This document shows positions 6,120 through 62,111 of a stretch of DNA of 64,000 bases, one piece after another (the first letter of the stretch is position 1; the number at the start of each line of letters is the position of its first letter). Below the pieces are notes generated by a model. It worked only from the letters and a program-made list of their open reading frames with translations. It was not told the origin of the DNA and did no database searches. Made by a program: the position numbers and the translations under genes. The stretch covers positions 1 to 64,000 of the forward strand of contig JASKKR010000006.1 in assembly GCA_030154085.1 (NCBI GenBank), read 5' to 3'. This DNA is from Candidatus Cloacimonadota bacterium. GTDB taxonomy: Bacteria > Cloacimonadota > Cloacimonadia > Cloacimonadales > Cloacimonadaceae.

Positions 6120-7703
6120 TCAGACCAACCTCGCTTGTGTTTGCTCGACGAAATCTTTAATTTCAGGATTATCCTGTGTTATGTCGTCGATAGTTTTGCG
6201 TGGAATATCCACTTTTGTGGGCGCATCTTGCTCGATCAATTCGATATTCAGATGCAGCGCTTTCCCGAAGAAGTCGTTGATGATTTCTTCTATGCGTTCC
6301 TTATTTGTTTTTAAAGTACCGAAATATGTTTTACTTGTGGTGGTAATGTTAATGGCATGTTCTTTGAGACCTACGAGCTTCGCCTTCTCGAATGCGATTC
6401 CTGCAGTTTGACTGCTTTTCTTGATTCTTTGTGAAAGCCTATTCCAGTTGTCACTAAGATTTTGCAAGTTCAATTCAACTTTGGGCGATTCCTGCTCAGG
6501 TTGTGGCATGGAGGCAACTCTTTCAGGTTGCTTTGCCGGTTTTGAAGGGATTTTAGCTGCAGGGGGAGGAGCAGATATCTGATTTGTCTTCAAAGCACTG
6601 ATGAGATCAGAGATCTCGGTTATCTCCTCAAGGCGTGAGAGCTTGATCATCAAAGCTTCAATGAGCAAATGGGGATTGCTGCTTTGGCGAATATCAGCCT
6701 TTGTTTGCATCAATTGACTCATTATGTAGAGTAGATCATTTTGGCTGAATTGCTCGGCAATCTCAGCAAACATAGGTAGCTCATCCTGACTGATATCTCG
6801 AATCTGAACATCAAGCTTAGTCAAGAGGATAATACGCAGGTATTCGAGCATATTTGCAATGAATTCCTGTAGATCAGTCCCCTCTTCGAAGATCTTGTGC
6901 AGTTCTGTGATTAGCGCTTTGGTTTCACGCTTTTTGATCATCTGCATGAAATCGTGATAGACTTGATTTGGGATCATCCCAAAGATCTGGCGGACTTGCT
7001 CGATGGTAATATTATTTTGGCAAAAGCTTATGGTCTGATCCATCAGAGAGAGGGCATCGCGCATTCCTCCATCAGCCTTACGTGCAATCAGATAAAGAGA
7101 TTCGTTGTCTATAGTTATATTTTCTTTGTCGCACAGATCCTTTAACCGCTCAACAATTGAATCCACGGGAATACGTTTGAAATCGTATCTTTGACAGCGA
7201 GATACGATGGTGGCAAGCACCTTATGAGGCTCAGTAGTAGCAAAGATAAAGATGACATTTTCAGGAGGTTCTTCGAGAGTTTTTAGAAGAGCATTAAAAG
7301 CGTTTTTGGACAACATATGCACTTCATCAATTATGTAGATTTTATACTTAGATCCGCTGGCAGCGTAGAGAAGCTCGCGTTGGAGCTCTCGGATATCGTC
7401 AACACCGGTGTTACTGGCACCGTCGATCTCAATCACATCTGGAGAGACTCCACTGGTTATTTCTACACAATTTATACACTCATTGCAAGGATGAATTGTG
7501 GGTCCTTTTTCGCAATTCAGGCTTTTTGCCATGATGCGAGCCAGGGAAGTCTTACCCACGCCCCGGGGACCGGTGAAAAGATAGGCATGCGCAATCCTTC
7601 CAGACTGAATGGCACTTTGCAAGACCTTAGTCACGTGATCTTGCGCATAAACTTCAGAGAAGTTCTGCGGTCTGTATTTGCGTGCAAGTACTATGTAGCT
7701 CAT
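6120..7703 (-). CDS. dnaX: DNA polymerase III subunit gamma/tau
   Basis: The clamp-loader ATPase subunit of the replicase, 527 residues. Conserved motifs are VLARKYRPQNFSEV near the N-terminus, the Walker A GPRGVGKTSLAR, a zinc-binding module with CEKG and CNECINC, and the Walker B/DExx-type IIDEVHMLS. The SRC motif appears in VSRCQRYDF. The C-terminal third (from about residue 390) is Pro/Lys-rich and variable, as expected for the tau part. ATG 7703 is chosen over an upstream frame start because GGAGG lies four bases before it. No obvious slippery A-run with a frameshift signal was noticed. The glycosyltransferase follows directly, with its likely start at or overlapping the dnaX stop. Confidence 0.97.
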   Translation of the reverse strand: MSYIVLARKYRPQNFSEVYAQDHVTKVLQSAIQSGRIAHAYLFTGPRGVGKTSLARIMAKSLNCEKGPTIHPCNECINCVEITSGVSPDVIEIDGASNTGVDDIRELQRELLYAASGSKYKIYIIDEVHMLSKNAFNALLKTLEEPPENVIFIFATTEPHKVLATIVSRCQRYDFKRIPVDSIVERLKDLCDKENITIDNESLYLIARKADGGMRDALSLMDQTISFCQNNITIEQVRQIFGMIPNQVYHDFMQMIKKRETKALITELHKIFEEGTDLQEFIANMLEYLRIILLTKLDVQIRDISQDELPMFAEIAEQFSQNDLLYIMSQLMQTKADIRQSSNPHLLIEALMIKLSRLEEITEISDLISALKTNQISAPPPAAKIPSKPAKQPERVASMPQPEQESPKVELNLQNLSDNWNRLSQRIKKSSQTAGIAFEKAKLVGLKEHAINITTTSKTYFGTLKTNKERIEEIINDFFGKALHLNIELIEQDAPTKVDIPRKTIDDITQDNPEIKDFVEQTQARLV

Positions 7704-7832
7704 ACAACCTCCATGGGACATTGTTTTCACACGGCGGATTTAGGCAAGTAATTTCTACTGGACAAAACCTACCCTTTGCCAGAGATTGATTTTAGTAATA
7801 AATATTATTATCCTATAAGGAGGATATTTTCC

Positions 7833-9056
7833 ATGAAGCTTGAAGGAAAAGTGGTGATTGCACAAGGGGGAGGGCCCACAGCTGTAATCAATCAATCTAT
7901 GGTTGGAGCAGCTTTGGAATCCCGAAAATTCACTCAAGTAAGCCGCGTCTATGGTGCTTTACATGGTGTACAAGGCATAGTGAATGAAGACTTTATAGAT
8001 CTTACTCAAGAAACCACACACAATCTGGAACAGGTGGCAAACACTCCCTCCAGCGCTTTGCTTTCCACACGGGATAAGCCCGATGAAGCATATTGTAAAG
8101 AAATCTTTAAAGTGCTCAAAGCTCATGAAGTTAGATACTTCTTTTATATCGGAGGAAATGACTCTGCCGACACCGTACGCATAGTGAATGAACAAGCTCA
8201 AAAAGCGGAATATGAATTTCGCGCCTTACATATCCCCAAGACTATTGACAATGATCTGGTATTGAGTGACCATACTCCAGGCTATGGATCTGCAGCAAGA
8301 TTTGTAGCTTCAGCTTTTGCCGGCGCAAACTTGGATAATCGCGCTTTACCGGGAGTATACATCGGAGTGGTAATGGGCAGACATGCTGGATTTTTGGCAG
8401 CAGCAGCCGCTTTGGGACAGAAGTATCCAGATGACGGACCTCATCTTATCTATATGCCCGAGCGACCCTTCAGTAGAGAAAAGTTTATCAAAGATGTTAA
8501 AAAGGTCTATGATACATTTGGCAGGTGTGTAGTAGCTGTCTCCGAAGGAATTGTGGATGAAAAAGGTACCCCAATGATCGCCAAGCTCACTAAAAACGTC
8601 GAAACCGATGCTCATGGCAATGTGCAGCTATCAGGAACTGGGATGTTGGGAGATTTGCTCTGTGATCTGATCCGTGAAAAGCTAAAGATCAAAAGAGTAC
8701 GCAGCGATACTTTCGGCTATCTGCAACGCTCGTTTTTGGGCTGTGTATCAGACGTGGATCAGCGAGAAGCCCGCGAAGTCGGTGAACGCGCAGCCCACTA
8801 TGCAATCTGGTATAATCTGGATGGATCAATTTCTATCCAAAGAACCGGATACTATTCTGTAACATACCAATTGGAAAAGCTCGAAGACGTCGCGCGCAAG
8901 ACTCGCATCATGCCAGATAACTATATAAATGCAGAAGGCAATGGAGTCACAGACGAATTCCGCTATTATCTGCGTCCGCTTCTGGGCTCGGGATACCCCG
9001 CTTCGCATCGTCTCAGAGCACCCAAGGTGGGAAAGGTTTTGTTTGCCGAAACCTAA
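7833..9056 (+). CDS. pfp: 6-phosphofructokinase, probably pyrophosphate-dependent
   Basis: This 407-residue enzyme phosphorylates fructose 6-phosphate in glycolysis. GGGPTAVINQS forms the N-terminal phosphate-binding loop. GGNDSADT replaces the GGDGS of ATP enzymes: the Asp after the third residue blocks the ATP alpha-phosphate pocket. PKTIDNDL carries the Lys typical of PPi-dependent enzymes, followed by MGRHAGFLA. The combination points to pyrophosphate as phosphoryl donor, which would make the step reversible and ATP-saving in a fermenter. Start 7833 has AAGGAGGA about nine bases upstream; an upstream in-frame ATG adds a non-homologous 19 residues. It is transcribed away from dnaX and ends at a clear terminator. 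An ATP-dependent clade with similar loops cannot be wholly excluded. Confidence 0.92.
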   Translation: MKLEGKVVIAQGGGPTAVINQSMVGAALESRKFTQVSRVYGALHGVQGIVNEDFIDLTQETTHNLEQVANTPSSALLSTRDKPDEAYCKEIFKVLKAHEVRYFFYIGGNDSADTVRIVNEQAQKAEYEFRALHIPKTIDNDLVLSDHTPGYGSAARFVASAFAGANLDNRALPGVYIGVVMGRHAGFLAAAAALGQKYPDDGPHLIYMPERPFSREKFIKDVKKVYDTFGRCVVAVSEGIVDEKGTPMIAKLTKNVETDAHGNVQLSGTGMLGDLLCDLIREKLKIKRVRSDTFGYLQRSFLGCVSDVDQREAREVGERAAHYAIWYNLDGSISIQRTGYYSVTYQLEKLEDVARKTRIMPDNYINAEGNGVTDEFRYYLRPLLGSGYPASHRLRAPKVGKVLFAET

Positions 9057-9079
9057 TTATTAAGGTCTATCGATGTTAT

Positions 9080-9115
9080 AGCTAAGCTTGGCAAAGGTCC
9101 ACGCTTAGCTTTTTT
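9080..9115 (+). terminator. Rho-independent terminator of the phosphofructokinase gene
   Basis: The 8-base arms AGCTAAGC (9080-9087) and GCTTAGCT (9103-9110) flank a 15-base loop. A run of six T ends the structure at 9115. It lies 24 bases after the phosphofructokinase stop and overlaps the last codons of the convergent amylase gene. The opposite strand lacks a T run, so it should act mainly on the plus strand. Confidence 0.85.
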
Positions 9116-11267
9116 GTATGCACATTGCTCCTGGAGGCAATATTATCCTTGTGCCCTGCACTTGGATCCTTTCGTCGCTGGTAAAAATCAGATCCCCATA
9201 GCTCTTACTTTCTCGGTGCTGGGTGGATAAGTTCATTATGCAAAACACACTCGCATCATCTTGATACCGGCGATAGATGAGTAGATCATCATCAGTATCT
9301 TCAAATAAGAATTCACCTTCACGAAAGAGTTTTTCTTTCTTTCTCAGTGCAATGAGCTCTTTGTAATGCATACGAAGTTTTACTGATATAGGATACTCTT
9401 CCCAACGCCAGTTGAAAGGACGCCGATTGTCTGGATCCTTGCCGCCCATCATGCCGATCTCATCCCCATAGTATATATGTGGAACGCCTACAAAGGTCAT
9501 CTGAAAGAAAACTGCCTGCATCACGTTTAGGATTTCCTCTTTGGCTATTTGGCGAATACGCTGTGTATCGTGGCTACCCAAGAGGTTCATCATAGCCTTT
9601 GAAGCATGTGCGGGATATTCCGCCAAGCCCTCTTCGATTCGGGCACAAAATTGCTCTTTTGAGATAAGACTTTGGATGAAGAATTCAACAACAGGGTTTC
9701 TGAAATAGGCATAATTCATCACGGAATCAAAATAGCGCGGGTCTATCCAATCTTTAGCATTGTGCCAGATCTCCCCTACCAACCAAGCATCCGGTCTTAT
9801 GCTCTTGATTCTTTCTCGGAAAAGCTGCCAGAACCACCAGGGTACTTCATCTGGAACATCCAGACGGAATCCATCCATGCCTATCTCGCTGATCCACCAT
9901 GACGAAGCTTCCAGTATATGGTTCACCAAATCCCAATTTACTTCGGCATGCTTTATATTCCGGATAGAGTTTTCTAGAGGGTGTTGGCGAGCAAGATCAT
10001 AGTTCAGATCCGGCATATCCTTAATACCCCACCAACATTGGTAATATTCACGTGGCTTAAAGTCATCTGGCAGTGGATCAGGTAAGGGCCATTTATACCA
10101 ATCATACCAGTGCCAATAGGGAGAGTTCGGACCCTTAACGACAGTATCACGAAACGCCCAAAAGCTTTCTCCACTGTGATTGTAGGCAACATCCAAGATC
10201 ACTCTGATTCCCCGCGCATGAGCATCCTGAACTAGTTCCTTAAGTTCTTCGCTGCTGCCGAAATGGGGATCTACGCGCATAAAATCCGCTGCATCATACT
10301 TGTGATTCGATTTGGCTTCCCATAACGGATTGAAGTAGATCAGAGTTATGCCAAGGTCTTGAAGATAGTCAAGCTTTGACCGGACACCTGCAATATCGCC
10401 GCCATAGAAGCTCCACCAATCCGGCATTCCTTCTGGCAAGTAAGGGTTTTGTTTTAGTGAACTTATATCATACCAGTCATCCACAAAGTGATAATACTCA
10501 TGATGCGGAGACTGAAGAGTCCCGCTTGCGGGAGGTGTTCGCGAGCCTTCATAATAGAACTCCGAGAAGTCTTGATCATTGCTTTTATCGCCATTGCAAA
10601 AGCGATCCATGAAGATTTGGTATATGATGGCATTATTTAACCAGTCCGGAATTTCGAATATAGGCATATCCCTCGGATTGATCTGTAACCTTTGCTGATC
10701 TGGAAGAGTATCACTGACGCTTCCGGTACCCAGATAATACTTTTCACCTTGGTAACTGATCAAAATACAAAAGCTAAGGCTGTCGGAGATCTCAAGATTC
10801 CTGTGCCAGACATAGTACTCGCGTCCCTGCCCTACAGGATAAAGCGGCAATTCTTGATCGCCAAGGCACAAAGAGATGCTATCTCCCAAGTTTGCATACC
10901 ATAGAAAGCGTAGCTCAACCATATCCTCACGCGGACGCGTCAAGTAAAGATGGGACTTGGCGCCGCCCTCTTTATAGCGAGAAAGAGCTTCTGCAATCGT
11001 ACTCACTTTGTGTTTTTCTGTTACAGAAATGACAGAATTTACCCCGCCAAAAGGATCAGGCTCGAGATTAGGATTTGATGGATCAGCCTGCCAAACACCG
11101 TCAATTATGAACTTATATCTATATCTTCCGGGATTTAGATCTATGTCATAGATATATAAGCCATCATGATCATCCAATGGATAGATTTTCCACTTCGTAA
11201 AATCACCGGCAATGCCCACTTCATAATCACCTGCCGTCAATGGTTGATAGCTAAAGCGGACAATCAA
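9105..11267 (-). CDS. Cytoplasmic GH13 alpha-amylase family hydrolase with N-terminal carbohydrate-binding module
   Basis: This 720-residue protein acts on alpha-glucans or maltodextrins. Residues 1-88 form a CBM48/AMPK-type glycogen-binding module ([21 protein letters not shown]). Residues 90-205 form a second beta domain. The rest is a GH13 barrel with all four conserved regions: [17 protein letters not shown] with the nucleophile Asp, VGEIWHN with the acid Glu, and LLGSHDTQR. The layout resembles neopullulanase or cyclomaltodextrinase. No signal peptide is seen, so it probably works on internal glycogen or imported oligosaccharides. The start is TTG 11267, which overlaps the uvrA stop (TTGA), indicating translational coupling to an unrelated gene. 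Confidence 0.93.
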
Positions 11268-46298: not shown

Positions 46299-46326
46299 TT
46301 GACGAAATGCATCTGCAATGTATTTT
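46299..46326 (+). promoter_or_regulatory. Putative promoter of asnB
   Basis: TTGACG (46299-46304) is followed 16 bases later by TATTTT (46321-46326). The start ATG is at 46357 with AAGGAG between. The fit to the housekeeping consensus is fair. Confidence 0.4.
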
Positions 46327-46356
46327 TGCCAGCGTAGATCTCAAGGAGTAATTTAT

Positions 46357-48321
46357 ATGTGCGGAATTGCCGGAATATATAGCTTTGATAAAAAGAATAA
46401 AATAGATCTGAATCTTTTGAAGAAGATGACCACCCTCATCAAGCATCGGGGACCATATGATGAAGGCTATTTGATCGCAAATGATCCCGATAGCAAGATG
46501 CTCGCTTATTGCGGAAATGATAGCACTGATGCCATAAAAAGTAAGTTGCCTTATTGCCGGGATGAAATTCCGGCACACGTTGGCTTTGGTTTTCGTCGTC
46601 TACCCACAGTCGAACTCTCAGACTGGGGACATCAACCCATGTATGACCCGAATCTGGGCATTGGCATCGTCTTTAATGGCGAGATATATAATCACTATGA
46701 GCTTAGAGATGAACTCAGCTCCATGGGCTATCGCTTTGGGGGACACAGCGATACTGAGGTGATTATAAAATCCTACCATGCTTGGGGCATAGATTGTGTA
46801 CAGCGTTTTCTGGGAATGTGGGCATTTAGTATCTGGGATACCAAGACCCAGACTCTTTTTTTGAGCCGAGACAGATTTGGCATCAAACCTCTTTATTACG
46901 CACAAGATAAAGATTTTTTCTATTGGGGTTCAGAAATAAAAGAGATCCTGGCTGCACCCATTCCAAAAACCCAAAACCTCGCCATGATCTGGCGCAGCAT
47001 GAAAGTAAACGCAATGATGGTCTATGATGATGAAACCTACTGGCAAGATATTCACTCGCTAAAACCAGGGCACAATCTCATCGTCCGGGGTTCCAAGATA
47101 CAAATTCAGAAATACTTTGCTCTGGAACCAGAAGATTTTGAGCAAAGCACTCTTAGTTTCGAAGAAGCCTCCGCCGAATATTACAGACTCTTTTTAGATA
47201 GTCTCAAGATGCAAGTTCGCAGTGATGTTGAAATCGCCGCTTCACTTTCCGGGGGGCTTGATTCCAGCGCCATCGTCTGCCAAGCGGCTCAGCTTTTGGA
47301 CTATCCACTGCGCTGCTTTTCTACATATTATGAAGATTTCCCTGCTCTGGATGAACGCCCATATATCGAGATCATCGCGGCTAAAACTGGAATCCGTACA
47401 AATTACATAGCCCCCACAGCAAGCGATGCTATGGCTTGGTGGCAAGAAGCCACCTATCTCAATGACCTTCCGATCGCATCAGGATTTGTGAGCCAATATG
47501 CACTGATGAAAAATGTTCATGAATCCGGGCTCCGCATCCTGCTCTCTGGTCAAGGCTCAGATGAAATGTCAGCCGGCTACCGCCATGCAGGATATCGCTA
47601 TTTTGCGGATCTCCTGCGCGGTATGAAGTTTGTCAAATTTGCCTCCGAAATCCGCCACTATCTAAGCAAAAACCCCGCTGCCAATCTACAATATTTTGGT
47701 AAGACTGCTCTTTCAGCCTTCGCCAGAGAATCAACTGTATATAATTTAGAAGCCAATCGCTATCGCTTTGAGCCTTTTGCAGATGATTTTGTAGCCGATG
47801 CAAAAAGTCAAGCTCAAGGACATCTCATGCAAAAAATAGCAGATATCCCAGCTTCGCGACTCAGCAACTTCCTGTATAACATGATGCAGAATACCTCCCT
47901 TGGTACTCTGCTGCACTTTGAGGATAGGATGAGTATGGCACATAGCGTCGAAAGCAGAGTTCCTTTTCTGGATCACCGACTAGTAAAACTCGTTTTTAGC
48001 TTGCCCTCAGATTATAAGATTCGACCTCCCTATCATAAAGCTATTCATCGCCATGCTCTCAAAGATTGTGTCCCCATGGAAATCGCACAACGAAAAGATA
48101 AAGGCATTTTCGGAAGTCCATTTCAAGAGAATTGGATGCGCAATGAATTAAAAGCTTACATCCAAAGTATCATATATAGCCATGAATTCCGCAATCGTGG
48201 GATCTGGAACCTCCCCAAAATACACGAACGCTGGCATAAATATCTCAAAGGTAGTAATACTGACGCCGAGATGCTCTACAACGTTGTATCCCTTGAGTTA
48301 TGGTACAGAAGTTTTGCTTAG
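46357..48321 (+). CDS. asnB: Glutamine-hydrolysing asparagine synthase
   Basis: This 654-residue enzyme makes asparagine from aspartate, ATP and glutamine. It has the N-terminal nucleophile Cys (MCGIAGIYS), GFRRLPTVELSDWGHQP in the glutaminase domain, and the PP-loop SLSGGLDSSAIV in the synthetase. ATG 46357 exposes this Cys and has AAGGAG upstream; the frame start at 46318 would add 13 residues ahead of it. Some homologues of this length amidate cell-surface sugars instead, so a biosynthetic role in polysaccharides is an alternative. Confidence 0.94.
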   Translation: MCGIAGIYSFDKKNKIDLNLLKKMTTLIKHRGPYDEGYLIANDPDSKMLAYCGNDSTDAIKSKLPYCRDEIPAHVGFGFRRLPTVELSDWGHQPMYDPNLGIGIVFNGEIYNHYELRDELSSMGYRFGGHSDTEVIIKSYHAWGIDCVQRFLGMWAFSIWDTKTQTLFLSRDRFGIKPLYYAQDKDFFYWGSEIKEILAAPIPKTQNLAMIWRSMKVNAMMVYDDETYWQDIHSLKPGHNLIVRGSKIQIQKYFALEPEDFEQSTLSFEEASAEYYRLFLDSLKMQVRSDVEIAASLSGGLDSSAIVCQAAQLLDYPLRCFSTYYEDFPALDERPYIEIIAAKTGIRTNYIAPTASDAMAWWQEATYLNDLPIASGFVSQYALMKNVHESGLRILLSGQGSDEMSAGYRHAGYRYFADLLRGMKFVKFASEIRHYLSKNPAANLQYFGKTALSAFARESTVYNLEANRYRFEPFADDFVADAKSQAQGHLMQKIADIPASRLSNFLYNMMQNTSLGTLLHFEDRMSMAHSVESRVPFLDHRLVKLVFSLPSDYKIRPPYHKAIHRHALKDCVPMEIAQRKDKGIFGSPFQENWMRNELKAYIQSIIYSHEFRNRGIWNLPKIHERWHKYLKGSNTDAEMLYNVVSLELWYRSFA

Positions 48322-50319: not shown

Positions 50320-50490
50320 TGATACTTGCTGGCAGGTTTCCTGGCTCACAGCGGCTGCTTCCCTGAGGAAGCCATGAGATGCCTTCCCATCCCAAAATGA
50401 TAGTGACATCTCAAACCTTATGCTGCATACAGTGGCGGAGGCCGCTTCGTTTACGAATTCCCTATTACCGTATTTGCACCATCAAGTCAC
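50320..50490 (-). promoter_or_regulatory. Cobalamin riboswitch
   Basis: Read on the minus strand the B12 box AGCCAGGAAACCTGCC lies at 50346-50331. Upstream it has GGTGC (50480-50476), AATAGGGAA, GCCACTG and GGGAAGGC in the right order for the cobalamin family. It lies in the leader of the beta-propeller gene, whose ATG is 75 bases further on. The bases between (50319-50246) may form the switching part. A minus-strand TTGACA at 50523-50518 and TAAAAT at 50502-50497 could be the promoter, with a short 15-base spacer. Confidence 0.93.
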
Positions 50491-52128: not shown

Positions 52129-52650
52129 TTATTGAATTACTCTCGCCTTAGAGTATTTTGTGTCGTTGATCTCGCCATGAATATGCCATACTGAGAATAA
52201 CTCATCTTTAAACTCATACTTCCGAAACAAGCTGTGTATTTCTTCATTGGTGCTTCTCGTATTTTTACATGCCTCTCGAAAGTCAGATTGATGGTTAATT
52301 TTCTCAGCATATGCTTTTTCCAAGGTATACTCATAATTTGTGGTCAATACATTCCGATACTTAGTATTTCTGGCGATCATCCGGTGAGTATCTCTGACTC
52401 GAATCTTCCCAAATATCTCTGCAGTTTTCGTCTTCAACACTCTGACAGCTCTATTGTAAGAATTGCCCTTTGTCGTTAGTATTTCTTCAAATGCCAGGGG
52501 AAAAGGTTTGAAGGGATTACTAAGATCAATACTTCCCGAACCTAGTTTTGACAAATCCTGCAGAAGGTTACCCCAGGAGTAGTCCGAATCGCAAAAAACT
52601 CTGTTGATGCCATTACCAACCAGCAACGCTTTCTCAGTTTTGTTTGTCAT
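52129..52650 (-). CDS. SIR2-like domain protein, short or C-terminally truncated
   Basis: This 173-residue protein resembles the N-terminal part of SIR2-like effectors. It has VGNGINRVF (11-19) for nucleotide binding, LTTNYEYTLEKAY (near 102-114) with the conserved Asn, and WHIHGEIND (near 151-159) with the conserved His. The chain stops about 14 residues after this His, while the fold usually continues for 80 or more. SIR2-like proteins of phage defence deplete NAD+ on infection. AAGGAAG lies before the ATG. It is downstream of the type III-like genes. It may be a truncated, inactive relic or a minimal variant. Confidence 0.72.
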   Translation of the reverse strand: MTNKTEKALLVGNGINRVFCDSDYSWGNLLQDLSKLGSGSIDLSNPFKPFPLAFEEILTTKGNSYNRAVRVLKTKTAEIFGKIRVRDTHRMIARNTKYRNVLTTNYEYTLEKAYAEKINHQSDFREACKNTRSTNEEIHSLFRKYEFKDELFSVWHIHGEINDTKYSKARVIQ

Positions 52651-52677
52651 ACAATACTTCCTTAATGTGTAATGATA

Positions 52678-55542
52678 CTATATCAAAGCCCCATTCCTGA
52701 GCTTTCTGAACCAAGATTCGAATCCATCCGCTCTCAGCAGGAAGAAGGAGTAGTGCTGATCCTTCGTTTCCCGGCTGGTTAGTCGCAGATCGATCGGATT
52801 GGCTCGTTTGAGTTCCTTGTTAAGCTCCTCAAAGTGGCTGGAACCGTGCTCATCCTTAGCATTGGTCACTTCTTCAAAATCGTCATCGGCTTTTATCTCC
52901 ACGACGCATACCAGTTCCCTGATACCTTGATCCTGCAAATCTATCAGCTTTCTTTTATCTGAATCATGCATGTTCTTACCACAATTCGTGAGATAACGGG
53001 CCAGATCAATACGGATAAAGAAATCCGGGTTGAAGAATCTCCGGACTCTGTCTTTCCCCTTTTTCCAATATTCATAGCCAAGCGAGTAAAAACCCATGTC
53101 CGGGGATTTGATCCAGCTATCCAGATAGGCCGCATGCTTGATCAGGCCGATAATGAAGTTGGTCTCAGGGATGTGGGAACAAACCACGCAGTTTTGGGGC
53201 GTTTTAAAGGCGCTAAGATTGACGGTAAAGAATCTCTTGCCCTCAAATGGTTTCTGGATCAGATCGGTATCCAGATCGGATATGCCAGTATCAAAGATCG
53301 TGGTTTGATCAGCAGATTTGCCTGATATTAGGGCAAGTTCACTGATGAAAATGTGATACTCATTCGATAGCTCTTTTTCCCAATCATCAGAGACAAACAG
53401 CGAACTGCTTTGATCCAGTGCTCCTGCTCGGACGCTGCTGGCGTTTATCTCCAGAGTTCGCAAGGCAGTAGCCAGATTGACTTTTCTATCAAATCTGATA
53501 CTCTTCTCACCTCGGGGCAGGAAGCTGTTGAAATAAAGCTCCACAGCCTTCTTGTTCTCGTTTGTGAGCGCTTCTTGCGTGATACCGGCATCATTCATGG
53601 CAGCACGGATGGCTTCTCTGATATAATCACGGTTAGTGAGTTGTGACAGATCAAGAGAACTATCCAGGTTAAGACGCTGGTTTTCAAACTCCACATTCTT
53701 CATCTTCCTGAAAACGCTGAGAACTACTTCATCCAAAGAGCTGAAGTCCTTGGTCAGAGTGAAAGTCTTTTCCCCATGTAAATATTGCACATCCGCCGTC
53801 ATAGAACTGGTCTGAGGCTTCAACGTCAAAGACCGGTTTGATTCCTGTTCCGGCTCTTTATCCACGATTTCTTTTACCAAGTCATAATCCAGGTTGAACA
53901 AAGTGAAATGATGATTAAATCTGGGGCTCTCGTCCATAGAAGTAAACACTTTAGAAGATACGATCAAATCACATTCACGCACCTCATCCAGGAGATTGCG
54001 CACCGTCTCGCCAAACTTCTCATGATTGGTGATCACCACTTCGGGGTAGTTGCCCTTGAGCTCAAAATACGAAACCTGACGAGGTAGCCTGAGCCCTCTT
54101 CCCAAAACTTGAGAGATCAGCAGCTTGGAGTTGAACACCTTCTCCTGCATGGGAACGATCTGGAACACATTGTCCACATCCCACCCTTCGGAGAGTTTAT
54201 TTACCGCAAAGATGAATTCAGTCCTTCCCCCGGTCTTGGCGGGATCAGTCTCCTCGATCCTGTTCAATTGATCCAGGTAGTCTTCCCGATTGGCTGAGGA
54301 TGTAGCTACAATCACCACTTTGTCATTACGTAGCAGACCTTCGATAGCGTTCACGGTTTGGCCTTGATACAATGGATCATGCTTTGAAAGATAGCGGCTG
54401 TATACAGTGTAGAACTTATCTGCATTATCCTGAGCAGCTTTTTGAGTGTTGTTGATAAAGATGCTTATGGGTTTTACCTTCCCTCCGTAGGAATAGCGAT
54501 CCTTATTATCGAGATGAGTCTGGATGATCTGCTCATATCTCTGATCCTGAGTGAGATCGGAATCATCATCCGAGGTCTTGATCTTCAGCAGAGGATTGAT
54601 TTTCTTGATGATCCCCTCCTCCAGGGCGTCCTTGATCGAATAATCAAAGATCACGTCAGGGAAGAAATCGTTCTGGTTATAAGGCGTCCCCGTGAAGCCA
54701 ATATGGCGCTTGATCTTGGTTTCCTCACTCAGTTTCTGGTCTTCCAGAAGATTGTCCCGCAGAAACTTCATCCACAAGCGCTCATTCTTATCTTCGCCTT
54801 TACCGTAATTCATACCATCGAAATCAAAAGCTATTCCGGCGTCGCCAAACTTCAAGTGGGAATAGGCATGGTGCACTTCATCACTCAAAACCAGTACTTC
54901 TTCGGTATGCTTGAAGAGCATATCCGTGATCGCATTCTCGCCTTTGGTATAGACTGCGTTGATATTCTCGATGACGATGCTATAATCATCAACAATGTCA
55001 TTGGCGTTGCACAGGCTTACCTGTATGTTTCTGTATTTCTCCGGCAGTTTTTCCCTCAAGGCCAATCCCTTGGGAGAGAACATATAATCTCTGAACTTCT
55101 CTGTGAGCCCCTGTTCGATCACGGTGGAGGGAGGTCCCAATACCAGCACCCGCTTCACCTTCCCCAGGAGGATGGAAAGATAGGCGATGGCAAAGATCAC
55201 GTAGGATTTTCCTGCTCCAGTGGCCATGTAGCAGACCCCGGAGAGCTTGCCGGGCAGAGGTATCTGGGACAGCAGAGTACTTTCTGAGGCAAATCTCTGG
55301 CGAATGGCTTCCTTCTTTTTGAAGTTCTGCCTTGCCAGGTCTTCTATGGAATCGTAGCGTCCGCCCCAGAGATAGACCATGATCTGCCGAATGGCATCAA
55401 ACTGGTATTTCCTGCCGGAGGACAGAGCTAGTACATAATCCTCGATCTCGGAAAAATCGAACTTGCCGATGTCGTATTTCTTGGGATCGATATCCAGGGT
55501 GAGTTCGGATAAGCTGATCTTATTTCGGTATTGCCTTGCCAT
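52678..55542 (-). CDS. Type III restriction Res-like DEAD/DEAH helicase with C-terminal nuclease
   Basis: This 954-residue protein has SF2 helicase motifs: ATGAGKS (107-113), DEVH (221-224), GFTGTPY (282-288) and QVLGRGLRLPR (478-488). A C-terminal PD-(D/E)XK-type nuclease is suggested by NPDFFIRID near residue 838 and VVEIKADDD near 882. The size and layout match Res subunits of type III restriction-modification enzymes. Those use ATP to track on DNA and cut when two unmodified sites face each other. It starts one base after the methyltransferase stop, so the two are made together. Confidence 0.93.
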   Translation of the reverse strand: MARQYRNKISLSELTLDIDPKKYDIGKFDFSEIEDYVLALSSGRKYQFDAIRQIMVYLWGGRYDSIEDLARQNFKKKEAIRQRFASESTLLSQIPLPGKLSGVCYMATGAGKSYVIFAIAYLSILLGKVKRVLVLGPPSTVIEQGLTEKFRDYMFSPKGLALREKLPEKYRNIQVSLCNANDIVDDYSIVIENINAVYTKGENAITDMLFKHTEEVLVLSDEVHHAYSHLKFGDAGIAFDFDGMNYGKGEDKNERLWMKFLRDNLLEDQKLSEETKIKRHIGFTGTPYNQNDFFPDVIFDYSIKDALEEGIIKKINPLLKIKTSDDDSDLTQDQRYEQIIQTHLDNKDRYSYGGKVKPISIFINNTQKAAQDNADKFYTVYSRYLSKHDPLYQGQTVNAIEGLLRNDKVVIVATSSANREDYLDQLNRIEETDPAKTGGRTEFIFAVNKLSEGWDVDNVFQIVPMQEKVFNSKLLISQVLGRGLRLPRQVSYFELKGNYPEVVITNHEKFGETVRNLLDEVRECDLIVSSKVFTSMDESPRFNHHFTLFNLDYDLVKEIVDKEPEQESNRSLTLKPQTSSMTADVQYLHGEKTFTLTKDFSSLDEVVLSVFRKMKNVEFENQRLNLDSSLDLSQLTNRDYIREAIRAAMNDAGITQEALTNENKKAVELYFNSFLPRGEKSIRFDRKVNLATALRTLEINASSVRAGALDQSSSLFVSDDWEKELSNEYHIFISELALISGKSADQTTIFDTGISDLDTDLIQKPFEGKRFFTVNLSAFKTPQNCVVCSHIPETNFIIGLIKHAAYLDSWIKSPDMGFYSLGYEYWKKGKDRVRRFFNPDFFIRIDLARYLTNCGKNMHDSDKRKLIDLQDQGIRELVCVVEIKADDDFEEVTNAKDEHGSSHFEELNKELKRANPIDLRLTSRETKDQHYSFFLLRADGFESWFRKLRNGALI

Positions 55543-55543
55543 A

Positions 55544-57703
55544 CTATCTCTCCAGGATTATGATCTTACTTTCGTTGCCATGCCGGTCGATCACGATCAC
55601 CGCCACTTTATCGGTTAGCTTATCCACGTTGATGATGCCATCGTCTTTGATGTCCTTGCGGTAGACCGCAGCTTCCATGGTGAACATCTTGCCGTCGTAG
55701 TTCTTATCGATCAGCACCATGGCCAGGGCGTCCAGACCTTGGATCTCATTACCGGCTTTGTCGGTGATGGCTGTCTCAAGATCAGATATCACTAAACCCT
55801 GAGGATGCCATTTGAGCTTACATGTTACTTCCTGGTTAAAATAGAAACGAGTGGATGAGATGAGTTTATTGATCTCGGAAGAGCTGCCCGGCTGCTCGGA
55901 AAGCTGCTGGGAGCGGCTGATCTCTTCCAATATCTTGTATGGGTAGCTCAGGATCTTGAAGCTAACTGTATTGCCCTGGGAGGTTCTATAATCCCAGTCG
56001 CCAACCCGGTCACAGGTCTCCGGGGCAATGATATAATAGTTACCCTTGAGCTTGCCACCCTCTGCTTCAGCCAGGCCTTTCAGGTATTCCTTATCGATCT
56101 TGATATTCTTCAGGTAGTCGTCTTCCCAGATGGGATAGATCTCCACCGGATCGCCATCTTTCAGACCATAGATATTGGGCAATTTGTACTTTGCCAGCTC
56201 CTCAGTACTGCGCTCCTGGATGTTGAACAGAGTTAGTATGAAATTGATGTAGGCTTCCTTGTGCTGCCTTAGGTTAACAATCCGGCTGAAGTCGAAGCTA
56301 CCAACTGAGGCAATGATAAAGGGCCTAGCGTTCTTACCGTATTTATCACCTTTACTATCATTGGAACTAAGTTTCTTTGAATCAGCGATAGTTAAAATCC
56401 GTTTTTGCATCGTATATATAGAATGCTTGCCAAAGTCTCCCGTTATCCATCTTCGTCCAAGTTTTTCAGCTACTGCAGCAGTAGTTCCAGAGCCGCCAAA
56501 TACGTCCAAAACGAGATCGTTCTCTTGAGTAGATCCATTCATTATTCTTTCAAGCAGTATCTCAGAGTTTTCAGTAGGATAGAATGTATTGTGTGTCTCA
56601 TAGCTTTTAATATCTGTCCAGTTTGAGTTTAGTAGCACAAAGGGTTCTTTTAGATACTCTGGCATACCTACAATCTTATTTCCTTCAGTATCAATGTAAG
56701 ATCTTCTTTCGTTAATTCGAATATCTCCTTGAGCATCTAGTTCCGAAATTCTGTCTTGAGCCAAGCCCCAATGTTGTCCTTTTGGCGGGTATAGTGTTTT
56801 CCCTAAAAAAACTCTAGGTCTGATATCCCGATTTTTTCTCTCTCCTGGCATATCGAGAGATATCCACCTTCTTTCCTCATCTTCTATTGGTTTAGTATTC
56901 TGATTAAGGACAAAGCTCGGTGATTTTGAGTAGAAAAATACCGAATCTGTTGCTGTTGGGAACTGAGAAGTTTTGCCCTTAGGGACATATCCTCTGCGAA
57001 TAATGATCTCATTCCTGAAATTGTTTTTTTCAAAGACCTCGTCCATGATGATTTTTACGTAGTGCCCGAAGTGATAATCTATACGCACAAATATGCTTCC
57101 GTCTTCTGATAATAACTCCCTTAGAAATAGGAGACGTTCTCTTAAGGCCTCAACATACTCAGAACCTGCTAATTTTGCACTGTAGCTCATTATTCCATCA
57201 CCTGCACCATACTCATCACTAGTCCCAAAAGGCGGATCGATATAAACCAGCTTGACCTTGCCTTTGACCTTGTCTTTGATCAGGGGGTCCTGATTCAGGT
57301 AGCAAGCTTTGAGAAAGAGCAGATTGTCACCCTGGACGATCAGGTTGCGCCAGTCATCTTCGCCCCGCTTCTGCTTCTCCAGAATATCGAAGATCTCTTC
57401 CTGGGTGTCACCGTTGTGCTTGAAATCCTTGCCATCGAAATAGCGTAGGATCTGCAGAGGTGAGCTTTCACCCAGGAGCGCGGCTGAAGCGAGGATGGCC
57501 GGTTCGCTGCGTTTACCCTCATAATCCAGAATGGGGATTTTGTATTTATCAAGCCGTCTATAATCGAACTCACCGGCTTGGGCGAGCTTGTCAAAGAACC
57601 CGGGGGCGATCTTTTTTACTATTTCCAGCGGAAACTCGACATTCTCATTGATGCATTTGGCGATGATCTCTTTTTCTTGGTCGGATAGATGGATCTTGCT
57701 CAC
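55544..57703 (-). CDS. Type III-like (Mod) adenine DNA methyltransferase
   Basis: This 719-residue protein is a beta-class amino-methyltransferase, in which the catalytic motif precedes the SAM motif. Motif IV is IDPPFG (155-160), and motif I is LDVFGGSGTTAA (399-410). The YPTENSEILLERIM stretch (375-388) is motif X-like. The region between (230-370) should recognise the DNA target. A C-terminal part of about 270 residues (450-719) is longer than in many Mod subunits and may bind Res. The GTG start at 57703 has GGAGG in the end of the previous gene. Target sequence and modified base are not known; N6-adenine is likely. Confidence 0.93.
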   Translation of the reverse strand: MSKIHLSDQEKEIIAKCINENVEFPLEIVKKIAPGFFDKLAQAGEFDYRRLDKYKIPILDYEGKRSEPAILASAALLGESSPLQILRYFDGKDFKHNGDTQEEIFDILEKQKRGEDDWRNLIVQGDNLLFLKACYLNQDPLIKDKVKGKVKLVYIDPPFGTSDEYGAGDGIMSYSAKLAGSEYVEALRERLLFLRELLSEDGSIFVRIDYHFGHYVKIIMDEVFEKNNFRNEIIIRRGYVPKGKTSQFPTATDSVFFYSKSPSFVLNQNTKPIEDEERRWISLDMPGERKNRDIRPRVFLGKTLYPPKGQHWGLAQDRISELDAQGDIRINERRSYIDTEGNKIVGMPEYLKEPFVLLNSNWTDIKSYETHNTFYPTENSEILLERIMNGSTQENDLVLDVFGGSGTTAAVAEKLGRRWITGDFGKHSIYTMQKRILTIADSKKLSSNDSKGDKYGKNARPFIIASVGSFDFSRIVNLRQHKEAYINFILTLFNIQERSTEELAKYKLPNIYGLKDGDPVEIYPIWEDDYLKNIKIDKEYLKGLAEAEGGKLKGNYYIIAPETCDRVGDWDYRTSQGNTVSFKILSYPYKILEEISRSQQLSEQPGSSSEINKLISSTRFYFNQEVTCKLKWHPQGLVISDLETAITDKAGNEIQGLDALAMVLIDKNYDGKMFTMEAAVYRKDIKDDGIINVDKLTDKVAVIVIDRHGNESKIIILER

Positions 57704-57704
57704 T

Positions 57705-60700
57705 TTATTCCTCCAGGGCTTTTTCCAAATATTTGTTCAGGGTGCTTATCTTGGTCTGCGCCGGGTCTGAGGGCAGCAGATTGAATTTATTTATGCGTAG
57801 GAACTTGTAGCCATAGCTCTCAAGTTCCAGCTGGCGGGTGAGGTCATATTCCAAATACTGGGGATCGTGGGGGGAATTGGGGTCAAAGTGATATTCAAAG
57901 CCGTCATATTCCAGGATCAATGACCGTTCTTTACCGCCCTGGCTGTGGGTCAGGAGGAAATCCACCCGGTATTTGGGGATATAACGCTGGTATTGCTCTT
58001 CCAGATACTTGCCGATTTCGAACTGCGCCACCATCTTGATCTTATCCTTGTGCTTCTGGTAAAACTCAGTTTGCGTGATCAGACGATACAGCTCTTTCTC
58101 TGCTTCAGATTCGAATATGCCCTCATCCTCAATATAGTTGTCCCGTGTGTTTTCCAGTTGCTCATGATAATGTTGCAGAGCAGCGCCCAGAGTTGTATCG
58201 TTATACTTTTCCAGGGGCATGCTATGCACAAAGACCATGGTATCCTTGGCACGGGAAAAGCCCACGTTGAGACGTTGCATCTTCAGTTTGCGGATATTGT
58301 CGGCTGTGCCGCCCACCACAGGATAGATGGTCCTCAGGTCGGCTGTCTTATATTTATCGTCCTGAACGAAGGAATAGAAGATCACGTCCCGTTCCTCGCC
58401 CTGGACATCGCCCACAAACCAGACCTTCAGATTATTATCAGCCTTCAAATGGGTAATATAGTTCTTGTTACGGAATTCCTTTTCCATCCTGGCCTGCTGT
58501 TCTTTGAAAGAGCAGATCACGCCGATAGAACCCTTGAAGTTTTGCTCGTGCAGTTGTTTCAATTCATCCATGATCACTTCGATCTCATCAAGGTTTACGT
58601 TTGAGGCTGAATGCGTCTTAGTTTCCACTCTGATGAATCTGAGTACTTGCTTGATGGGTTTGGTCCTGATCCGGTTGATGATCAGATCGATACTGTTTTG
58701 TTTGTAAAAGAACTTGGCGGAATAGGAGATGATCTCCTGGAAACTGCGGAAGTGAACATCAAGGGCAGAGCTGTAATTGGCCATCGCACGGCAGAAAGCC
58801 AGGGTGGAAGTTCTGATGCTGAAGGTTTTCAGCCATTCGATGTTCCCGGCTGAGGGCAGAAAAATCCGGGAAGTCTCCTCCTCATCTTCATCAACAGAGG
58901 CCTTGCTGACCTCGCGGCTCAGCCTGTCAGTATCTTCATCTGAGACATGGAAGTTTTGATCTTTGCTATAGCTGCGGATGATCTCCTTGAAATAGGCACT
59001 GGCATAATGCTCTGCCACGTTAACCGCGCTGACCGCGCCATATTGGAGTTCGTCTCCAAATATGATCACCTGTTTGGCCCGCAGGATCAGCGATAATGAA
59101 TCCGCAATCGAGACCTGGGAAGCTTCATCGATGATCAGGTAATCAAAGATATCCTCCTCCATGGGAAAGTAATCCGTGATCAGGCTGGGTTGGGCGATCA
59201 CGCAGGTTAGATGCTGGTTCATCACACTGGTTTGTTCTGAGGAGAGGCGTTTTTTAGTGAGGATCGAGGTCTGCATCCGGCTGATATCACCGGTGTAGTT
59301 TAGCAATTCTGAATAGCGCTGATCGTTTTGATATTCATGTCTCTGATGGACAAGGCGATAGAATTCCTGAATGTCCTGTTGTGCAGGTTTACTTGCTCCC
59401 GATAAGGCAGCCAGAACATTCTGGAGCTGGATCATCCTGAGCGTCTTCTCGAACTTTTCGGCGGGGACCTGCTTCCACTGGCTCAGATCGTGCAATCCGA
59501 TGCCCAGATGTTCCAGCCAGGCTGGGTATGTATCATATAGTTTATCAAACCAATCCCAGTCAGTATCCTGAATCTTGCTTACTACCTCATGCGCTCTTTT
59601 TAATCTGGTATTAATCAGGGGAAGAGCGCTGACATCGGTTTCCAACATGGCTGCCAGCTCTTCAATCAGGCTGTTTGCCAGGCCAGTCTCGTTCTGAGAT
59701 CCTAATAGGTCAACTCCAGTTACAAGGTCCTGCAATGTGAGGTCATCTTTCTTTTTTCCGGTTTGATCGGCTATGGTTTGGATAAGCTCAGCATGATCTA
59801 TCTGCCCGAGCTGCTGAAGGTTGCTCTTAATACTTTCAAAGCTGACTCTTTTGTGCTCAGCTAGCAGATAAGCATCTGTGAATTGGGAGTCGCTTGAGTT
59901 TTGAGCCAGTTTCTTTTTGATTTCATCCAGGTATTTTCTGGCTTCCTTAATCTTTCTCGTCTTGAAGACCTGGTCACAGAACTCCGGGTGATCCTGTTCA
60001 AGGGCATGTTCCGCCTCTTCGCGTTTCTTTTTACTTTCCTTGCCAGCCAGTAATCCTCTGTGCTTTTCGATATCATTTAGCAGAGCCGATAGCGATTCCA
60101 ACTCATCTGCCCGGGGAAGATACTTATCCCCCCAGCGCAACTTGATGGGTTTCAAATCATCTTGGAAAACACTGAAATCGCTTTTTATTGATATGGCTAA
60201 TGATCTGACTATCTGGCTAAAGCTCTCCAGTGAAGATAGATCTACGCTTTCAGGAGCGGCGGTGGTCGGTATGGTCTTATCTTTGTTTAGATGCTCCAGT
60301 GCTTTTCTATAGGCCTCGTACCTTTCCCTTTTCTGGAAATACTCGTACATGTGCTGATAACTGAGGGGGAAATCAATCTCCTGCAACTGTTTGAAGAATC
60401 CGAGCAGATCGGATGCGTCCAGTTCGGTAAAGTTAGATAAAAGAATCTCGCTCTCCGGGAGTTGGAGATCCTTTTCCAGATCGAGGTATTCGGAGATGAG
60501 ATCATTCGAAACCAAAGCCGAGTCAAATTGCTTCCAATAGACTTGGTTCTGCTCTTTGATCCTATCCAGAGTCTCCTGTAGTTTTTGCTCTGTTGCAGTA
60601 ATGTTAATTCGCTGAACCCTATTGGCGGCTCCGTTGAAAGCTGGATTAGCCAGAGTCTGAGCGGGTGGATTGGCGATTCCATCGCTTGCCTTGTCCATTC

Positions 60701-62111
60701 TGATGATGGCTGGCTTCCCTGTTTGATTTAAGCTTCTGAACTTGGCAGTCAGATAACCTTCGATGACATCCAGCGCTTGTTTCTTGTGTGAAGTGATCAA
60801 AACGCTTTTACCCAAGCCTGAAGCCATATAGACAAGCGCAGAGATCGTGTGTGATTTCCCGGTACCGGGAGGGCCTTCCACCACGATTATCCGGTTCTTC
60901 TCATTTTGAGCAGCCAGCAGGATCTTCTTCTGAGACTTGTTTAGGGGGAAGGGATTGTCATCGACAATGTTCCAGACATCCCGGGGAGGGTATTTATCCC
61001 GGTATTGCTGTTCTATTTCTTTTTGCGTAGAGGGAACATTGGAATTTATGTATTGGTCTATTAAATTGAGGAATTTCTGCCCTACTGAAGAGTCCGATAG
61101 TGCCAGTAATTCTGAGTAATCCAGGAGGTTGTTGGAGTCCTGTTTTACGATCTGAAATCCCACCCGGGAGGATATCTCTGGATAGTTGGGCAAAATTAAG
61201 CTGGGGAACTTGTCCTGCATCAGAAAATCCTGGGGGCCGTGGTAGATGGTATTTAGAAAGCCATTCAACTGACGTATGGTAGCCAGTGCGTTACTCATTT
61301 CTTCAGCACGTGGTAATGTCAGTACATCTTGGGGCTTGTTGGCGTTGATAGCTGGTGTATTCAAGTAGATGATCTTCTGGGTCTGCACCAGACTAATGGA
61401 AGCAAATTGGTTGTCAATGCTCAACTCAACAAAGTAGAGGGGATAGCTGCCAGCTTCATTACTGATTTGGTGGGCAAAGAGATAGACTCTGTCCAGACCA
61501 ATCTTCCTATCCAAATCCCTCAACTGGGCAAACAAGTCAAACAGGACCAGTGTATACTCGGAATTCTTGATGATCTGCAGGACTGCCTCTTTAAAGTGCT
61601 CAATATCAGTGGTGACGTTTATCTCACGTTGGATGCTGTCATAGATAAGTTGCTCATTGATGCTGGGGTTGAAGCTTGTTTTAGGCTGATATGAAGTTCC
61701 ATGCAGATTTTGCAGTTCGGCTATCTTCTGGGCTTGCATGTTGTATTGTATAGCCTGGACTTTGGAGCGAAGATCCAGATTGAACTGCCTGAGAGCATTG
61801 TTGGTTTCTTGATTTGCCGGGTCACAGGTCTCTGGTAATCTGGAAAACAGGCCTTTGGCTTCCCTGGAAACCTCATCAATAAATGCCCTTCTATCCAAAG
61901 AAATGCTGTGCTCTTCAGGATGGATTGAAAGATTTATCCTTTTACCATCCTTTATCTCATTTAACAGGTTTTGGGCGACTTCAGGAAAAAAGGGAATATC
62001 CAGCGTCTTGTCGTCATTGCTCCAGGCAAAGTTTATCCTGGTATCAAAGCGGAATCTGGTCTCGTTGTAGGTAGAGTAGTAGTTTAAGATGCTCTTGGCT
62101 AGGTTCTTCAC
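57705..62111 (-). CDS. Large SF1 (UPF1/DNA2-like) helicase with C-terminal PD-(D/E)XK-like nuclease
   Basis: This 1468-residue protein has an N-terminal domain of about 390 residues with no recognised fold, then an SF1 helicase. Walker A is GPPGTGKS (413-420). A large helical insertion (about 530-980) separates it from LIIDEASQVS (near 990) and IIFGDELQYG. The late motif LNVGFSRAKD lies near residue 1285. The C-terminal 110 residues hold a Vsr/PD-(D/E)XK-like nuclease: YRVDFLL near 1384 and LILEYDGFEYH near 1400. Start GTG 62111 has GGAGG nine bases away. It is the first of three coupled genes with the type III-like Mod and Res. Confidence 0.9.
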   Translation of the reverse strand: MKNLAKSILNYYSTYNETRFRFDTRINFAWSNDDKTLDIPFFPEVAQNLLNEIKDGKRINLSIHPEEHSISLDRRAFIDEVSREAKGLFSRLPETCDPANQETNNALRQFNLDLRSKVQAIQYNMQAQKIAELQNLHGTSYQPKTSFNPSINEQLIYDSIQREINVTTDIEHFKEAVLQIIKNSEYTLVLFDLFAQLRDLDRKIGLDRVYLFAHQISNEAGSYPLYFVELSIDNQFASISLVQTQKIIYLNTPAINANKPQDVLTLPRAEEMSNALATIRQLNGFLNTIYHGPQDFLMQDKFPSLILPNYPEISSRVGFQIVKQDSNNLLDYSELLALSDSSVGQKFLNLIDQYINSNVPSTQKEIEQQYRDKYPPRDVWNIVDDNPFPLNKSQKKILLAAQNEKNRIIVVEGPPGTGKSHTISALVYMASGLGKSVLITSHKKQALDVIEGYLTAKFRSLNQTGKPAIIRMDKASDGIANPPAQTLANPAFNGAANRVQRINITATEQKLQETLDRIKEQNQVYWKQFDSALVSNDLISEYLDLEKDLQLPESEILLSNFTELDASDLLGFFKQLQEIDFPLSYQHMYEYFQKRERYEAYRKALEHLNKDKTIPTTAAPESVDLSSLESFSQIVRSLAISIKSDFSVFQDDLKPIKLRWGDKYLPRADELESLSALLNDIEKHRGLLAGKESKKKREEAEHALEQDHPEFCDQVFKTRKIKEARKYLDEIKKKLAQNSSDSQFTDAYLLAEHKRVSFESIKSNLQQLGQIDHAELIQTIADQTGKKKDDLTLQDLVTGVDLLGSQNETGLANSLIEELAAMLETDVSALPLINTRLKRAHEVVSKIQDTDWDWFDKLYDTYPAWLEHLGIGLHDLSQWKQVPAEKFEKTLRMIQLQNVLAALSGASKPAQQDIQEFYRLVHQRHEYQNDQRYSELLNYTGDISRMQTSILTKKRLSSEQTSVMNQHLTCVIAQPSLITDYFPMEEDIFDYLIIDEASQVSIADSLSLILRAKQVIIFGDELQYGAVSAVNVAEHYASAYFKEIIRSYSKDQNFHVSDEDTDRLSREVSKASVDEDEEETSRIFLPSAGNIEWLKTFSIRTSTLAFCRAMANYSSALDVHFRSFQEIISYSAKFFYKQNSIDLIINRIRTKPIKQVLRFIRVETKTHSASNVNLDEIEVIMDELKQLHEQNFKGSIGVICSFKEQQARMEKEFRNKNYITHLKADNNLKVWFVGDVQGEERDVIFYSFVQDDKYKTADLRTIYPVVGGTADNIRKLKMQRLNVGFSRAKDTMVFVHSMPLEKYNDTTLGAALQHYHEQLENTRDNYIEDEGIFESEAEKELYRLITQTEFYQKHKDKIKMVAQFEIGKYLEEQYQRYIPKYRVDFLLTHSQGGKERSLILEYDGFEYHFDPNSPHDPQYLEYDLTRQLELESYGYKFLRINKFNLLPSDPAQTKISTLNKYLEKALEE

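Follow-up and report, generated by a model that had tools for sequence, protein, structure and literature searches.

The closest described counterpart of the system reported here is BtuG, which captures B12 in the femtomolar range at the Bacteroides surface and caps the transporter BtuB (PMC6143338, PMC10404256). Wexler et al. 2018 reported it as a lipoprotein that occurred, among 313 gut genomes, in Bacteroidetes only (PMC6143338). B12 capture by a propeller lid has so far been described as a Bacteroidetes trait; within the literature that we searched (subscription papers lay outside the search) no work joining BtuG with Cloacimonadota or Cloacimonetes was found, and papers on Cloacimonadota that were examined for B12 transport contained nothing relevant. 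Here, we analyse a locus from this phylum, whose members are common in anaerobic digesters, in which a cobalamin riboswitch precedes the gene of a secreted beta-propeller. We consider it highly probable that this gene is part of a corrinoid-scavenging module, in which a B12-switched propeller, anchored through the type IX secretion system (T9SS), serves BtuB; in this bacterium, the propeller most likely takes the place of the B12-grabbing BtuG.

The window (i.e. the whole stretch of 64,000 nucleotides that was analysed) carries a complete cobalamin riboswitch aptamer (RF00174, model positions 1-189) at 50498-50314 on the minus strand. Its score over the full length (71.3 bits, E = 1.3e-15; cmscan with all Rfam families) exceeds the curated gathering threshold of 31.5 bits, which places it within the family, and its B12 box reads AGCCAGGAAACCTGCC. 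No other cobalamin riboswitch was present in the window, and none was recovered elsewhere in the genome (1.95 Mb, 99.75% complete), which was searched in full. The aptamer, first recognised in a sequence-only reading of the window, is thus confirmed as genuine by the covariance model. It ends 68 nt before the ATG (50245-50243) of the propeller gene (50245-49007, minus strand; Shine-Dalgarno GAGGTGA), a monocistronic gene that encodes a secreted BtuG-like beta-propeller of 412 aa (P0001); a TTG at 50395 (ORF of 462 aa) was rejected as the true start, as this frame overlaps the aptamer. Since a terminator-like hairpin (48980-48953, minus strand; 12 pairs, 8 of them G-C, followed by a T-rich tail) stands 3' of the gene, and the downstream neighbour (asparagine synthase, 46318-48321) is encoded on the opposite strand, the riboswitch can control the propeller gene only. 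The same reading had held that the propeller, ending at a terminator, was the only gene within the reach of the riboswitch and had no transporter gene beside it; both statements were borne out, the latter within the window.

The flanks of the locus differ from those of its relatives. Directly upstream of the riboswitch lies a defence-type island (52129-62111, minus strand) with a SIR2/AbiH-like fragment, a type III-like restriction enzyme and methyltransferase, and a large helicase-nuclease-like protein, where relatives carry other genes. Downstream, the propeller is followed in the genus by a conserved row of PAS-like, PTS IIA-like, 321-aa outer-membrane-like and tRNA synthetase-like genes (names assigned by eye), and the absence of this row at 49007-48321 indicates that the locus was rearranged.

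The encoded protein begins with a signal peptide (residues 1-20, 50245-50186; ...ILNA-DLIW, with a helix at 2-15 in the structural model) that lacks a lipobox, continues with a seven-bladed propeller with velcro closure (residues 21-320, 50185-49286; strand order from AlphaFold2, and Foldseek) and ends in a T9SS type A C-terminal sorting domain (residues 339-410, 49231-49016; all on the minus strand). The sorting domain was detected by both TIGR04183 (E = 2.4e-15, 56.3 bits against a cut-off of 23) and PF18962 (E = 1.4e-14, 54.6 bits against a cut-off of 27) and, together with matches to YVTN/YncE-type propellers, it substantiates the type IX-sorted propeller of the sequence-only reading. It is present in 60 of the 67 family members, only 13 of which have a cysteine close to the signal-peptide cleavage site; P0001 itself has neither the lipobox nor the lipoprotein export signal of BtuG. 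The translocon and sortase of the system are represented in the genome by SprA (493.8 bits, cut-off 200) and PorU (606.9 bits, cut-off 420), and the T9SS would deliver the propeller to the cell surface and anchor it there.

The survey of the phylum comprised 125 Cloacimonadota genomes, in which 103 strong homologues of the propeller were found and 101 of which contain a cobalamin riboswitch. A riboswitch lies on the same strand 68-147 bp upstream of 38 of the homologues and 2.2-8.8 kb upstream of a further 31; for 21 it is located on another contig or position of the genome, and 13 belong to genomes without a detected riboswitch. Considering that a 2 Mb genome carries one or two riboswitches, the linkage cannot be due to chance. 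Other families of the phylum (L062, L063, L064, L135, L140) have the order riboswitch, btuF, btuC, three divergent genes, btuD, btuB and propeller, with the last two genes adjacent or overlapping; as the divergent genes separate btuD-btuB-propeller from the riboswitch, such loci document co-location and not direct control. The divergent genes (Rrf2-like, IscS-like and NifU-like) recur between btuC and btuD in many B12 loci of the phylum (L062:4872-7120, L063:6939-9192, L064:4389-6641, L099:3507-5814). In the window's own family we found the order riboswitch-btuB-propeller (L065 and L103), tandem arrangements with separate riboswitches for btuB and the propeller (L066, L067, L070) and, in genome G036, the two genes in different places (L049, L105), each preceded by its own riboswitch. 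The relative Candidatus Syntrophosphaera thermopropionivorans W5 likewise has this propeller gene after an aptamer of similar type (L134). Family-wide, the propeller thus occurs, as BtuG does, in a B12-riboswitch locus next to btuB; here, the riboswitch is present and btuB is situated on another contig.

The sequence-only reading had advised looking for the same pair elsewhere in the phylum and had staked its case on homologues being linked to B12 genes or riboswitches at all; the pair recurs in 38 genomes, and the link of homologues with riboswitches and btuB holds across the phylum. These data also contradict an accidental meeting, by which a riboswitch left behind by a lost btuB operon would precede an unrelated surface protein. 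Such a history would agree with the departure of btuB and the restriction-modification and helicase cluster that is now found upstream; the recurrence of the pair at 68-147 bp and the preserved pairing of the expression platform with the Shine-Dalgarno region speak against it, and we reject it as scarcely credible.

The remote BtuB that had been thought possible does exist, on contig C35 (73110-75263, equivalent to L087:8111-10264). It is a 717-aa protein with plug and barrel domains, the genome's only match to the BtuB of a relative, and 10 of its 11 PDB matches are BtuB or BtuB-complex chains (the best being Escherichia coli BtuB and B. theta BtuB1-3), by which this TonB-dependent receptor is closest to B12 receptors. 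The same contig carries btuF-btuC at about 90.65-92.42 kb. No riboswitch was detected in front of this btuB by a permissive scan, and no B12 box was seen there, which we count against the scavenging module. In G036, btuB (L105) has the same surroundings (elongation factor P and two ABC exporters, named by eye) and a riboswitch in front, unlike the btuB of the present genome, where the riboswitch was either lost or never gained. It appears from the sequences that the capture protein is B12-regulated here, whereas the transporter is not.

Among the B12 users of the genome are methylmalonyl-CoA mutase (a B12-dependent enzyme of propionate metabolism) and a B12-binding radical SAM protein, while CobS was not found in the genome, which fits a corrinoid scavenger. 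A further gene (L090:4034-6324, contig C1) encodes a protein with a B12-binding domain (PF02310) behind a gene of 518 aa, and the two are a candidate lysine aminomutase pair.

We reason that, at low intracellular B12, the propeller mRNA would be translated and the protein exported, and that corrinoids captured by the surface-exposed propeller would be handed to BtuB and then to BtuF and BtuC, the uptake supplying methylmalonyl-CoA mutase and the other B12 enzymes. The propeller could instead bind another ligand needed at low B12 (a metal or a cobalt chelate) and merely be co-regulated with B12 uptake. YVTN/YncE-type propellers are functionally diverse, and some members of the family match the NCBIfam models AztD and L-NosZ (at the level of the general family only); nevertheless, we judge this very improbable, because the receptor encoded beside the propeller matches B12 transporters, the ABC genes nearby belong to the BtuF/BtuC type, and the genome has two plug-domain proteins in all, BtuB being one of them.

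The AlphaFold2 model, built with 67 family members (mean pLDDT 94.2), has the strands of seven blades, the last of which (313-319) closes the first blade, an architecture like that of 3DSM and 8BMX. When the model was compared with the PDB by Foldseek, an archaeal YVTN surface-layer propeller (1L0Q; TM 0.66 of target) ranked first by E-value, and ranks 2-17 were taken entirely by BtuG chains and their relatives (including the BtuG-type 3DSM); cyano- or adenosylcobalamin is present in the majority of these structures. Isolated BtuG propeller chains in these ranks reached TM-scores of 0.75-0.80 of target (rmsd 2.8-3.9), and the non-BtuG propellers that followed had lower ones. By sequence, 1L0Q was the best single match (3e-11), and BtuG1 chains stood behind it both in the single-protein (4e-8) and in the profile comparison (4e-21; 78.3 bits, against 106.6 bits for 1L0Q). 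The best match by sequence and by Foldseek E-value is 1L0Q, although BtuG is closer by TM-score; the likeness may thus reflect either orthology with BtuG or the parallel recruitment of a YVTN propeller, and we count the rank of 1L0Q among the points against the module. Hence, we call the protein BtuG-like, and not BtuG, as it lacks the lipoprotein feature and may have a separate origin.

Conservation within the family is uneven between the two faces of the propeller, the loops of the D-A/B-C face being more conserved than those of the opposite one (Mann-Whitney p = 0.0003); N27, N55, S69, N95, N182, Q184, C197 and W201 are among the residues with the highest conservation. In BtuG2, Trp194 is a pocket residue (PMC10404256); it was aligned in a B-C loop, for which reason we take the D-A/B-C face to be the corrinoid-binding face in BtuG. 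The conserved face of P0001 would thus be the one that carries Trp194 in BtuG2, an agreement that we claim at the level of the face and not of single residues. Family members are acidic overall (median net charge -19); in P0001, however, the acidic loops occupy the face that is less conserved, so that the charge test mismatches the simplest expectation from BtuG2 and counts against the module.

These observations bear on whether the propeller binds corrinoids at all, or acts in B12 uptake as a structural lid or assembly partner, with BtuB alone as the binder. The linkage to btuB, which exceeds that to any other gene, and the stable complexes that BtuG forms with BtuB (PMC10404256) would suit a non-binding lid, as would the fact that P0001 and BtuG could be compared face by face and not contact residue by contact residue. 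We hold such a lid to be unlikely, since cobalamin is the ligand in the ligand-bound structures that come closest by fold, and N27, N55, S69, N95, N182, Q184 and W201 are positioned on the face inferred from Trp194 of BtuG2. On balance, we favour reading the propeller as a BtuG-like lid of BtuB that captures corrinoids and is anchored by the T9SS and not by a lipid. The participation in corrinoid capture, possibly with a remote BtuB, that the sequence-only reading had suggested is therefore supported by the linkage to btuB and riboswitches and by closest structures that are mostly BtuG-cobalamin complexes.

The comparison of related aptamers points to a mechanism for the switch (all positions on the minus strand). 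The 5' strand of the aptamer (GUGACUUG, 50490-50483) can pair through ACUUG with CAAGU in P1 or, alternatively, as a whole with CAAGUCAC of the expression platform. Directly behind the aptamer, the sequence comparison within the genus delimits a hairpin (CCCACGGAGUGAGGGG, 50313-50298), whose CGGAG is complementary to CUCCG in the aptamer loop L5 (50436-50440) and may form an L5-L13 kissing loop with it. By complementarity, the switch strand (GUUCAUCUCAAGUCAC, 50283-50268) has two alternative partners, the aptamer 5' strand and the Shine-Dalgarno region (GAGGUGAAC, 50257-50249), the latter being fully complementary to GUUCAUCUC. In one genus group, represented by 26 aptamers, the 5' strand GUGACUUG(A) and (U)CAAGUCAC of the platform are perfect complements, as are the adjoining GUUCAUCUC and the Shine-Dalgarno region. 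A second group (n = 11) has a different 5' strand (GAAUAGAUGGUGCUACUU) and a platform changed in step (AAGUAGUUCAUCCCUAUUC), and in L078 the two strands take a third form (AUGACC with GGUCAU). A switch strand prefers its own aptamer to those of the other genus group, as the mean duplex energies of native pairs (-20.6 and -15.5 kcal/mol) and cross-group pairs (-12.6 and -10.2 kcal/mol) illustrate.

Energy folding of the platform alone gave a structure no better than shuffles (z = -1.0, which again counts against the module), and the window's platform contains a second possible anti-Shine-Dalgarno strand (GUUUGCCUUG); thus, the switch model rests on comparison and not on energy. In this model, the aptamer 5' strand would hold the switch strand in the absence of B12 and translation would be on; with B12, the 5' strand would be drawn into P1, and the freed switch strand would cover the Shine-Dalgarno region and turn translation off.

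A scan of GTDB genomes with the profile of the propeller family yielded 79 loci. The direct order riboswitch, btuB, propeller was encountered in records titled Zixiibacteriota, Calditrichota, KSB1, WOR-3, GN15 and FCB group (e.g. L160: riboswitch 6559-6767, btuB 6791-9013, propeller 9010-10323), and a riboswitch was contained in the available stretch of 15 of the 21 scanned loci from outside Cloacimonadota. These titles are the depositors' and can err, as two Cloacimonadota-like loci titled Armatimonadetes or Armatimonadota illustrate; the naming of the Cloacimonadota relatives likewise follows such titles. A record titled WOR-3 (L172:5043-7514) has two family propellers in tandem after the riboswitch and btuB. 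A wider proposal would be that a separate YVTN lineage serves as a T9SS-delivered, B12-capturing lid of BtuB across FCB-related phyla, and that in the genus only the lid is under B12 control, by means of the switch strand; we put this forward tentatively, as a possibility that we rather doubt.

If the reading of P0001 as a corrinoid-capturing lid is true, the lid strategy extends to Cloacimonadota and several uncultured phyla, with the anchoring exchanged (T9SS for lipid) and the partnership with BtuB kept, and a function is given to a phylum-wide protein that is annotated merely as a T9SS sorting-domain or YncE-like protein. As methylmalonyl-CoA mutase is present and CobS absent, corrinoid capture may set the dependence of these bacteria on their neighbours. 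Beyond the initial interpretation, the analysis establishes the linkage to btuB within the phylum and across phyla, identifies the remote BtuB and the T9SS machinery, assigns a BtuG-type fold and proposes a model of the switch.

Measured against known systems, P0001 shares the seven-bladed propeller superfamily with Escherichia coli YncE (PDB 3VGZ), a weak match by sequence (E = 0.005). With the archaeal surface-layer YVTN propeller 1L0Q it has the repeat type in common; 1L0Q, however, is an S-layer protein with a PKD domain and no link to B12, and is more distant by TM-score (0.66, against 0.75-0.80 for BtuG). BtuH and BtuJ/DUF4465 of Bacteroidetes have a like role in accessory surface capture of B12, but their domains differ from P0001 and neither was seen in this locus. 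The fullest likeness is to BtuG1/2/3 of Bacteroides thetaiotaomicron (PDB 3DSM, 8BMX, 8OKV, 8BLW, 8PTD), with which P0001 shares a seven-bladed propeller of YVTN/YncE type, a gene beside btuB (in relatives), control by a cobalamin riboswitch and a predicted surface exposure. It departs from them in its identity (15-20% over the structural alignment), in the T9SS type A sorting domain that it carries instead of a lipobox and lipoprotein export signal, and in the host range of its family, namely Cloacimonadota and their relatives.
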